Made by a program: the position numbers and the translations under genes. Source: Acetomicrobium hydrogeniformans ATCC BAA-1850 (lineage in GTDB: Bacteria; Synergistota; Synergistia; Synergistales; Acetomicrobiaceae). Taken from it: DNA of 64,000 bases. Positions 1,505 to 4,724 of the stretch are shown here, one piece after another (within the stretch, counting starts at the first letter, position 1; each line of letters opens with the position of its first letter). The notes below the pieces were generated by a model. The model saw only the letters and a list, made by a program, of their open reading frames with translations. It did no database searches and was not told the origin of the DNA. Location of the stretch: the NCBI RefSeq assembly GCF_000160455.2, contig NZ_ACJX03000001.1, positions 1,994,001 through 2,058,000 of the forward strand, written 5' to 3'.

Positions 1505-4234
1505 TTAGACATATTCGCCTTTGAGGCCGGCGAGTATCTTTTCGGGTTTGGCAGGCAGACGGTGGACCCTGACTCCGCAGGCGTTGTAAATGGCGTTTCC
1601 TATAGCGGCATGGGGGCTTGTGAGGGGTAATTCTCCTACTCCTGCAGCTCCAAAGGGGCCAAACTCCCGGGGGTAATTTTCGAAGTAGACTATCTCTATG
1701 TCATCTGGGAGATCCTTAGCGTAGGGGAACCCTCCCCCGATGAGGGAAGAATGCCTTTTAATATCCTCAAAGTCCTCCGATAGAGCAAGTCCGATTCCCT
1801 GGGCGATCCCTCCGTAAATCTGGCCATCGGTCACCAGGCGGTTATTGACTTTTCCGATATCAGCCATCAAGGTCATCTTGTCCACGGCAACCTTGCCTGT
1901 TTCGGTATTAACCGAAACCTCGGCAAGAAAGACTCCATACATATAGACGACGAAGGGCCTTCCCTGACCCTTTTCGTCGCAGGGAACGCCTGGAACTGAA
2001 TATTTACCAACGTACTTCAACGGTTTACCGGCACTGACGGCTTCGGCGTAGTTCATATATGTCCCATCGGGCTTCCGTAGGGATTTGAGCATTTCAGAAC
2101 AAGCGATCCGAATGGCGCTGCCGGTCAAGACCTGTGAGCGCGATCCGCCGGCAGGTCCCGAGTTAGGTGACTTTGACGTATCAGGCCAGGTGAAGTGTAT
2201 TCTGTCAGGCTTAATGCCCATTGGACGCAGCGCTTCATGGGCCGTTCCCACCACGCCCATATCGGCTCCTTGGCCATGATCTTCCCATGCTTGAACGATG
2301 GTGACAGTATCATCGGGATTCAGAACAGCCCAAGCCTCGGAGCTGTCGGGGCCGTCAAGGCCGCAGCCGTAGCAGGCCAGTGAAAGACCAACGCCTTTTT
2401 TGATCTTATCGGTGGATTCCTTCTTAGCCCTTTCTTTTGCCTCCTCGTACCTCGGCTTGATGGCTTCAAGCATCTCAGGATAGCTGAAGACCTCAGGTTC
2501 CTGCCCGCTCGGATTTGTGGAACCCGGACGATAGCAATTCTTGTAGCGTATCTCCCATGGGTCCATGCCGATTTTTTCGGCCAGTTCGTCAATGAGAGAT
2601 TCCGAAGAGAAAAGGGATTGCGGAGAACCGTAAGCCCTGAAGGCTGAACCCCAAGCATGGTTGGTGCAGACCGTCTGTCCTCTACCCCTGATGTTGGGGA
2701 TGTTGTAGCCTGCTCCCATGAACTGTGCGCCCCTGAGCGTGAGCAAATCCCCAAACTCCGAGTAAGGCCCGTGGTCCACTATGTAGTCCGTTTCCATGGC
2801 AAGGAGTTTGCCTTCATCGTCGGCAGCGAACTTGATATTCACAAAGAAAGGAGATCGCTTTCCAGTGTAAGTCATGTGTTGGAAGTAATTGTACCGGAGG
2901 AAACAGGGTTTGCCCGTCGCAAGGGTAGCTGCTCCAACCAGCGCTTCCATGGTCGGGCTGAACTTGTATCCAAAGGTGCCGCCCATGGGGTTCGATACGA
3001 GCGCAATTTTATCGGGCTCTAACCCGAGACCAGGAGCTATCATAAATAGATGTAGATGAGCGCCAATGGTCTTGGAGTGAATCTTTAGAACGCCGTTGTC
3101 GTCAATGTAGGCGAAACCGACGTCCGGTTCTATTGTCATGTGAGGCTGTCTTTGCACGTAGAAATCGTCTTCCGCGACATATGGGGCCTTCTCAAAGATG
3201 GGGGCCGTGGGCTCACCTTTCTCCAGGTTTTGGACGTAGTAGACGTTTGGCGTGCCTGGATGGATCTCAAGGGCGTCTTCGGCCATGGCTACCGGAGCGC
3301 TCATGTAGGCAGGAAGCACTTCTAGGTCGACCTTTACTTTTTCTGCAGCAGCACAGGCGTTTTCGTAGGTATCAGCACAGACGATCGCTATGGCATCTCC
3401 AAACTGGAAGACCTTTTCATCGCAAAGTATCGGGCGATCCCATCCGTCTCCCTTATTGGTCGGGAATGTGATGAGCCCTGTTATGCGATTTCTGCCCTTA
3501 ATATCCTTGTGTGTAACCACTTTGTAAACACCTGGCATCTTTTCGGCCTCGGAAGTATCGATGCTTTTGATATTGGCGTGGCTCACCGTTGCCTGTACAA
3601 GCGCCAGTTGCAGCGTGTTCTTTGGCATCTTAAGCCCAAGGTCAGCACCGTAATCCAGCGTACCTGTGGCTTTGGCCACAGCAGTGGGTCTTGGGTAGGT
3701 TGTGCCCCAAATTTTTCCGTCTTTAGGCATCTTGAACTCCAGCTCCGACTCGTCCATCTCTCCCCTAAGGACTTTAGCTGCATCCATGACAGCGTTGATT
3801 ATGGGGATGTATCCTGTGCAACGACATGCATTGCGGTTCTTGTGGAACCACTCCCTAACTTCTTCGCGTGTTGGAGAGGGGTTGCTGTCTAAAAGGACCT
3901 TGGCCGAGATTATGAAACCAGGATTGCAGAAACCGCACTGTGTTACCCCGTGCTTAACAAAGGCCTTCTGGATTGGATGCATCTTTTGAGGTGCGCCAAT
4001 TCCTTCGATGGTAGTTATGGAATCTCCCTCGTTGAGCTTATCGACCTTAAAGATACAGGAACGAACAAGTTTGCCATTCAGGATTACGTAACATGAACCA
4101 CATTGTCCAGTCCCGCAACCGACCTTCGTTCCCGTCAAGTCTAACTGCTCACGCAAAACCTTTGCCAATGAGTCCTTGCCATCGACTATAATGTTGCGTT
4201 CTACCCCATTGACAAAAAAATGCTTTTGGATCAT
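1505..4234 (-). CDS. mop: Molybdenum-dependent aldehyde oxidoreductase (MOP type)
   Basis: The 909-residue protein matches the Desulfovibrio gigas aldehyde oxidoreductase (907 residues, recalled sequence) along its whole length. The N-terminal [2Fe-2S] domain has Cys40/45/48/60, and the second cluster domain has Cys100/103/137/139, the same positions as in D. gigas. The large molybdopterin-cytosine-dinucleotide domain follows with no FAD domain. The C-terminal GVGELPLTSPHAA motif contains the catalytic Glu. It oxidises aldehydes to carboxylic acids in the cytoplasm and passes electrons through the Fe-S centres to ferredoxin, flavodoxin or a partner, here probably the downstream flavoprotein. 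In an amino-acid fermenter the substrates could be aldehydes from Strecker-type or 2-oxoacid metabolism (inference). The start has AAGGAGTGA upstream. A Moco-type riboswitch leader precedes the gene. Confidence 0.93.
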   Translation of the reverse strand: MIQKHFFVNGVERNIIVDGKDSLAKVLREQLDLTGTKVGCGTGQCGSCYVILNGKLVRSCIFKVDKLNEGDSITTIEGIGAPQKMHPIQKAFVKHGVTQCGFCNPGFIISAKVLLDSNPSPTREEVREWFHKNRNACRCTGYIPIINAVMDAAKVLRGEMDESELEFKMPKDGKIWGTTYPRPTAVAKATGTLDYGADLGLKMPKNTLQLALVQATVSHANIKSIDTSEAEKMPGVYKVVTHKDIKGRNRITGLITFPTNKGDGWDRPILCDEKVFQFGDAIAIVCADTYENACAAAEKVKVDLEVLPAYMSAPVAMAEDALEIHPGTPNVYYVQNLEKGEPTAPIFEKAPYVAEDDFYVQRQPHMTIEPDVGFAYIDDNGVLKIHSKTIGAHLHLFMIAPGLGLEPDKIALVSNPMGGTFGYKFSPTMEALVGAATLATGKPCFLRYNYFQHMTYTGKRSPFFVNIKFAADDEGKLLAMETDYIVDHGPYSEFGDLLTLRGAQFMGAGYNIPNIRGRGQTVCTNHAWGSAFRAYGSPQSLFSSESLIDELAEKIGMDPWEIRYKNCYRPGSTNPSGQEPEVFSYPEMLEAIKPRYEEAKERAKKESTDKIKKGVGLSLACYGCGLDGPDSSEAWAVLNPDDTVTIVQAWEDHGQGADMGVVGTAHEALRPMGIKPDRIHFTWPDTSKSPNSGPAGGSRSQVLTGSAIRIACSEMLKSLRKPDGTYMNYAEAVSAGKPLKYVGKYSVPGVPCDEKGQGRPFVVYMYGVFLAEVSVNTETGKVAVDKMTLMADIGKVNNRLVTDGQIYGGIAQGIGLALSEDFEDIKRHSSLIGGGFPYAKDLPDDIEIVYFENYPREFGPFGAAGVGELPLTSPHAAIGNAIYNACGVRVHRLPAKPEKILAGLKGEYV

Positions 4235-4522
4235 TTCATATCACTCCTTCTCTTTCATCACGCAGCATCATCCAATTTCATCTAAAACAAATAGAGTAAG
4301 GGAATTTTCGACACTTTATACACTCTTGCAGTTTTTGCACGTCCGCACTCACATGAAATCTAAGAAAAATTCTTGACGATTGACGACCCTATACAACTAC
4401 TGACTGTTAAAAGTGATTTTTTGCTATCACCTCTTTCGTGAATAAGTACTTGGGTGCCGGTGAGGTATAAAGATAGTTCAAGGAATGTTTATCTCTGACG
4501 GGATTTCGCGGATGCCTATACT

Positions 4523-4557
4523 AAAAAACTACCCCCTTCCTTCTGGGAAGGGGGTAG
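4523..4557 (-). terminator. Intrinsic terminator in the mop leader (expression platform)
   Basis: A perfect 12-bp stem (CTACCCCCTTCC with its complement, 5-nt loop) is followed on the minus strand by six T residues at 4528-4523. It sits just 3' of the riboswitch-like fold and about 290 bp before mop, where a transcriptional riboswitch would place its regulated terminator. It is too far from the upstream operon, and on the wrong side of the mop promoter, to be that operon's only terminator. Confidence 0.75.
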
Positions 4558-4568
4558 AAATATCACTT

Positions 4569-4661
4569 CCTCCTTTCCAGACGGGAGGCCTTTTCGTTTC
4601 CAAAAAGACCCTTTTGGTCAATGCTCATAGGCAATTGCCCTTAGAAACATTGACTCGGAGG
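4569..4661 (-). promoter_or_regulatory. Moco (molybdenum cofactor) riboswitch-like leader of mop
   Basis: Read on the minus strand, CCTCC (4661-4657) pairs with GGAGG (4573-4569) as P1, and GTCAATG (4654-4648) pairs with CATTGAC (4623-4617) as P2. GGTCTTTT pairs with AAAAGGCC (4610-4587) as P3, closed by a GAAA tetraloop. The 3' segment GCCTCCCGTCTGGAAAGG closely resembles the conserved 3' half of the E. coli moaA Moco RNA as I recall it. A P3 arm is said to mark Moco rather than the tungsten-cofactor variants. With a promoter upstream, a terminator downstream and a molybdoenzyme as target, cofactor-dependent control is the best reading. The covariance model was not run. Confidence 0.78.
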
Positions 4662-4695
4662 CTACATAAATACAACCTTATCATTTCTATCACAA

Positions 4696-4724
4696 ATCAT
4701 ACTAAATATAAAAATAAATGTCAA
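4696..4724 (-). promoter_or_regulatory. Sigma70-type promoter of the mop leader
   Basis: TTGACA (4724-4719) and TATGAT (4701-4696) are separated by 17 bp on the minus strand. Transcription would start near 4689, roughly 30 nt before the riboswitch P1 arm. The remaining leader, 4235-4522, shows only a weak 5-bp hairpin near 4410-4430 and no gene. Confidence 0.75.

Follow-up and report, generated by a model that had tools for sequence, protein, structure and literature searches.

A P3-lacking RF01055 riboswitch with a terminator ahead of a molybdenum-type aldehyde oxidoreductase gene in Acetomicrobium hydrogeniformans

The riboswitch locus and its target gene

The window analysed here is a 64,000-nucleotide stretch of the Acetomicrobium hydrogeniformans ATCC BAA-1850 genome, whose minus strand carries a promoter, a structured RNA, an intrinsic terminator and an oxidoreductase gene in succession. 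The sigma-70-like promoter (4696–4724) is made up of TTGACA at 4724-4719, a 17-nt spacer and TATGAT at 4701-4696, matching 11 of the 12 consensus bases, and its position would put the transcript start near 4689. The RNA is followed by a terminator (4523–4557) composed of a 12-pair hairpin (4557-4529; 8 pairs are G-C) and six U. Both flanking signals claimed in the first-pass annotation, a near-consensus promoter and a terminator, are thus in place. The scan with RF01055 that it had proposed as a check returned a match at 4672-4554 of 81.6 bits, far above the gathering score of 36 (E 3.1e-18 in 64 kb). This match covers the model over its full length (1-135) and is the sole Rfam match in the window. 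Folding of the element was more stable than that of shuffled sequences (z -5.1, 0 of 200 shuffles as good). A sub-threshold PyrR match over the terminator (24.5 versus 54 bits, E 0.4) was dismissed as a chance overlap with terminator-like sequence.

Alignment to the family model and structure prediction located the 5' strand of P1 (CCUCC) at 4657–4661 and P2 with its inner hairpin at 4617–4654 (5' strand 4654-4645, 3' strand 4626-4617). Five unpaired bases at 4612–4616 occupy the P3 site, followed by P4 with a GAAA tetraloop at 4586–4611 and the conserved aptamer 3' strand CUGGAAAGGAGG at 4569–4580. P1, P2 and a tetraloop hairpin had all been recognised in the earlier reading, but the hairpin it labelled P3 is P4, which is where the tetraloop sits in this family (PMC2408646); the model's own P3 positions are deleted.

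Between the terminator and the enzyme gene lies a 288-nt leader (4235–4522) with a ribosome-binding site, AAGGAG, near 4249-4244. It has no Rfam match, and stretches of it are shared with two Acetomicrobium-like relatives (L021 and L066). The gene (1505–4234) encodes a 909-residue aldehyde oxidoreductase of the xanthine oxidase family, scoring 1642 bits against the NF045668 equivalog model (cut-off 1100). Its iron-sulphur and molybdenum-site motifs are all intact. The nearest solved relative is the aldehyde oxidoreductase of D. gigas (1sij), a molybdenum enzyme (PMC3877041), and the best matches outside its own genome are in UBA5560 (85%) and Acetomicrobium sp. UBA3949 (91%, partial length). 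The two matches, RF01055 and NF045668, bear out the earlier proposal of a Moco riboswitch, in the sense of a Moco/Tuco family member, with a terminator ahead of a Moco-family enzyme gene. Control of cofactor-using enzymes by this RNA family was already described in 2008 (PMC2408646). Elsewhere in the window, at 13040-12687, an open reading frame judged by eye resembles an alanine racemase fragment fused to part of an amidohydrolase and is possibly a gene remnant.

Absence of P3 and the genes downstream of RF01055 RNAs

The family-model alignment has a deletion spanning the entire P3 hairpin, with the five bases linking P2 to P4, so the RNA has no helix of the kind that defines the Moco subtype and shows the absence that defines the Tuco subtype. 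We compared it with 48 P3-lacking relatives, as the first-pass annotation had recommended for the helices. Across P1, P2, P4 and P5, 19 of 29 pairs carried changes in both partners (P5 and some of P1 and P4 were nearly invariant and therefore contributed little information), and all 48 aligned RNAs share the GAAA (GNRA) tetraloop on P4. The RNA therefore belongs to the known RF01055 family and to its P3-lacking subtype. Regulski et al. (2008) sorted 176 RNAs by the presence or absence of P3 and proposed those without it to be sensors of a tungsten cofactor (Tuco); cofactor binding in vitro is absent from that study owing to the instability of the cofactor (PMC2408646).

The genome holds three RF01055 RNAs including that of the window, and P3 is missing from every one. 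One of the others precedes relatives of the tungstate transporter genes tupABC (TupA 359 bits against a cut-off of 400 and TupB 286 against 320, both below the cut-off). The other precedes a second NF045668 gene and then a small gene; in other genomes the gene downstream of the same enzyme encodes a cupin. All three RNAs are thus in the molybdenum- and tungsten-cofactor context typical of the family. Four AFOR_N genes add to the TupABC relatives as signs of tungsten metabolism in the organism. Alongside these are six genes of the xanthine oxidase type, a few of the DMSO reductase type and one or more modA genes, so the genome appears to be equipped for both metals. A second modA-like gene (G000:C1:1907884-1908538) seems to be split over two frames.

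RF01055 was found in 71 of 151 Synergistota genomes. From these we extracted 112 RNAs, judged the presence of P3 from RNA length and, for the longer RNAs, from inspection of the sequence, and assigned downstream genes by tblastn with reference proteins; 104 RNAs lack P3 and 8 contain it. Tungstate transporter genes follow the RNA at 59 loci (52 tup and 7 wtp, WtpA being identified by NCBIfam at one locus and by similarity to that one at the remainder), and P3 is absent from all 59. Further P3-lacking RNAs directly precede NF045668-type genes (11), formate dehydrogenase genes (5) and AFOR genes (3), and ten precede a gene for a DcuR-like response regulator, with an NF045668-type gene further on in four cases. 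Two (L101 and L118) lie near ModA-type proteins, and the remainder are mixed. The P3-containing RNAs comprise three on modABC-moeA in genus g5, three on moeA in g42 (in two of these, mobB and an AFOR-type gene were observed downstream), and two before NF045668 and cupin genes in g31 (L053 and L054), the only genus in which such an RNA stands on an NF045668 gene. No tupA match was obtained in the g5 and g42 genomes carrying P3-containing RNAs, nor any AFOR-family gene in the three g5 genomes tested. The two g31 genomes have both forms, a P3-lacking RNA on tupA and a P3-containing RNA on the oxidoreductase. The P3 rule thus holds well in Synergistota, with two exceptions and with P3-containing RNAs drawn from few independent lineages (three genera). 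On this evidence the tungsten cofactor is probably the ligand of the window riboswitch.

The arrangement seen in the window recurs elsewhere. Judged by coordinates, several more genes of the same type lie behind RNAs 119-120 nt long (examples are in G084, G057, G105, G043 and G029), and an RNA of the same type lies ahead of the orthologue in UBA5560 (L035) and on a deltaproteobacterial contig (L047). Two Desulfovibrio contigs have no RF01055 RNA within 1.5 kb of the orthologue. The papers retrieved on Synergistetes and riboswitches dealt, to judge from title and abstract, with subjects other than the RF01055 family.

Some other loci stood out in the survey. At the ten loci with a DcuR/DpiA-like response regulator directly after a P3-lacking RNA, the riboswitch may control a regulator. 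Two P3-lacking RNAs with a good terminator (L105 and L072) had no molybdenum or tungsten gene found downstream, an HD-domain protein following L105. One contig (G105:C188, 5708-6089) holds two divergent RF01055 RNAs only 142 nt apart (L088 and L015), each before tungstate-transporter-like genes.

Predicted switching between terminator and antiterminator

The conserved strand CUGGAAAGGAGG has two alternative partners. Its GGAGG would serve as the 3' strand of P1 when ligand is bound and otherwise as part of the 5' strand of an antiterminator, whose 3' strand CCCCCUUCCCAG (4543–4554) overlaps the 5' arm and loop of the terminator. The predicted antiterminator duplex, 4580-4569 with 4554-4543, has 10 pairs and an energy of -13.1 kcal/mol. 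While the 3' arm of the terminator is still unmade, the antiterminator fold is the minimum (-49.9 versus -44.5 kcal/mol for the fold with P1); for the complete RNA, P1 plus terminator is favoured (-63.2 versus -58.0 kcal/mol).

The same complementarity was seen across the P3-lacking RNAs. A terminator-like hairpin, defined by at least 14 kcal/mol, a T run and a start no more than 15 nt upstream or 45 nt downstream of the aptamer end, is present in 75 of the 104, and its 5' arm tends to hold the complement of the aptamer's GGAAAGG (at 4578-4572 in the window), or of GGCAAGG where that variant occurs. The arms of 74 RNAs paired better with their own aptamer strand than did shuffled arms (Wilcoxon p 7e-14) and also better than arms from other genomes (p 0.005), kinship being ignored in both comparisons. 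For the window taken alone the comparison with shuffles gave p 0.12, above the usual significance level. We also switched the single A/C position in silico and compared pairing energies with no preset patterns. The arm preferred C over A in 14 of 14 GGCAAGG RNAs, and A-type RNAs split 27 to 18 with 11 ties (Fisher p 3.7e-5, not tree-corrected).

Since the terminator arm is the complement of the conserved strand of the aptamer and the two co-vary, the window riboswitch is very probably an OFF switch. In the absence of ligand, nascent CUGGAAAGGAGG would pair with the 5' arm of the terminator and polymerase would read through into the oxidoreductase gene; bound cofactor would keep CUGGAAAGGAGG in P1, thereby releasing the terminator and turning the gene off. 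The first-pass annotation had suggested the reverse, that cofactor binding turns the gene on and makes apoenzyme production follow cofactor supply. This would be economical for an enzyme gene, and the distal part of P1 could recruit four terminator-stem bases (GUAG with CUAC), but eight terminator pairs would still stand. The antiterminator pairing predicts the opposite sign, and we rejected the ON-switch reading on this ground as very improbable; with an OFF switch, gating of apoenzyme by supply fails as a logic.

In the two P3-containing leaders of g31, a CUCUUUCC-like segment has, as judged by eye, two possible pairing partners, the aptamer's GGAAAGGGG and the ribosome-binding site, which suggests translational OFF control.

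A possible tungsten-shortage regulon

Because tupABC and a second aldehyde oxidoreductase gene stand under the same type of switch, the window gene can be placed in a putative tungsten-shortage regulon of three. A fall in tungsten cofactor would lead to more tungstate transporter being made and to molybdenum-type aldehyde oxidoreductases replacing the tungsten ones. Control of a molybdenum-type enzyme by a tungsten-cofactor switch would be logical if tungsten oxidoreductases fulfilled its function whenever tungsten was available. Acetomicrobium has been reported with five tungsten oxidoreductase paralogues (PMC12096430), and a tungsten oxidoreductase from Acetomicrobium mobile can oxidise many different aldehydes (PMC13328260). 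In the 12 genomes checked that have a P3-lacking RNA before the NF045668 family, regulator-led operons excluded, there are 3-6 AFOR-family genes, as against one each in the two g31 genomes with the P3-containing RNA; four genomes in which a P3-lacking RNA leads a response regulator and an NF045668-type enzyme have 1-3. These counts are consistent with isoenzyme replacement and do not prove it. Replacement leaves unexplained the P3-lacking RNAs before AFOR-family and formate dehydrogenase genes. The g31 oxidoreductase leaders add a further caution: by eye they resemble OFF switches, so an enzyme may be repressed by the cofactor that carries its own metal. We therefore regard isoenzyme replacement as a reason for the control with close to an even chance of being right, and put forward as the best explanation, though only tentatively, the whole reading, in which the tungsten cofactor acts through an OFF switch to repress a molybdenum-type aldehyde oxidoreductase that replaces the tungsten ones.

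Under another explanation, P3 does not set the metal. The ligand would be Moco, or either of the two cofactors, and its binding would repress a Moco enzyme, in line with how the family was first described. RF01055 is a single family, tungsten-cofactor binding has been demonstrated for no P3-lacking RNA, the two RNAs near ModA-type proteins fit this account (they are also a caveat on the P3 rule and so on the preferred reading), and deletion of P3 from the E. coli RNA merely broke it (PMC2408646). It is nevertheless unlikely in view of the strong split of P3-lacking RNAs to tup/wtp and P3-containing RNAs to mod/moe, which holds even within single genomes and is matched by the same segregation in the 2008 survey. 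An OFF switch with a tungsten-cofactor ligand could also mean simple feedback within one system if the xanthine-oxidase-family enzyme itself used tungsten. Both oxidoreductases share the P3-lacking switch type with tupABC, and elsewhere such RNAs directly precede tungsten enzyme genes of the AFOR family. The families with reported tungsten enzymes are, however, those of DMSO reductase and AOR, the xanthine oxidase family not being among them (PMC6365974), and the closest enzyme of solved structure, that of D. gigas, uses molybdenum. The active-site motifs match those of orthologues that lack an RNA or carry a P3-containing one; among the 16 sequences compared, no residue tracked the P3 type, carried a tungsten signature in the active site or told molybdenum from tungsten. 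Such feedback is accordingly rather improbable, and we give slightly less weight still to the specific claim that both oxidoreductases under P3-lacking switches are xanthine-oxidase-family enzymes dependent on tungsten, although, if true, it would break the molybdenum-only view of that family in the cited literature. The RNA and its terminator might instead be real but nearly irrelevant to an enzyme gene transcribed from its own promoter, which the long and partly conserved leader could hold. The minus strand shows no sigma-70-like site from 4235 to 4520, and RF01055 precedes orthologues in several genera and on the deltaproteobacterial contig, which makes this explanation the most improbable of those considered.

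The class of the window RNA is ordinary and its pairing unusual: a tungsten-type switch on a molybdenum-type aldehyde oxidoreductase. Both the ligand of the family and the role of P3 still await direct proof, and this genome is a good natural setting for both. One tungsten-type switch serves a tungsten transporter and molybdenum-type enzymes here, and the relative of the enzyme in g31 bears a molybdenum-type switch. The two form a natural pair of constructs that makes it testable whether P3 picks the metal and whether molybdenum and tungsten aldehyde oxidoreductases are swapped through an RNA switch. Biochemical work on tungsten enzymes already makes use of Acetomicrobium mobile.

Among known systems, the Tuco subtype of Regulski et al. 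(2008) resembles the window RNA in covariance model, core, absence of P3 and GAAA loop on P4; some of its copies have a terminator, and they lie before transporter, biosynthesis and enzyme genes (PMC2408646). The abstract of that paper does not include Synergistota among the phyla it lists. The P3-lacking RNAs of 2008 were mostly on MPT or tungsten genes, whereas the window target is an enzyme of the xanthine oxidase family; an exception is provided by P3-lacking RNAs on molybdenum-type sulfite oxidase genes in Syntrophomonas wolfei (PMC2408646). The Moco riboswitch of E. coli moaA differs in that it contains P3, represses biosynthesis genes with the ribosome-binding site inside P1, and responds to molybdenum and not to tungsten (PMC2408646); a termination signal has been seen for it in RNA-seq (PMC12121620). 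It belongs to the same family as the window RNA and exerts OFF control, as is predicted for the window RNA. In B12 riboswitches on metE and other genes for B12-independent isoenzymes, a cofactor represses an enzyme that does not need it. "Isozymes of B12-dependent enzymes" form a category of their own in PMC3766115. Under the isoenzyme-replacement explanation the logic of the window switch would be similar, although the B12 system employs another RNA family and another cofactor and is no relative.
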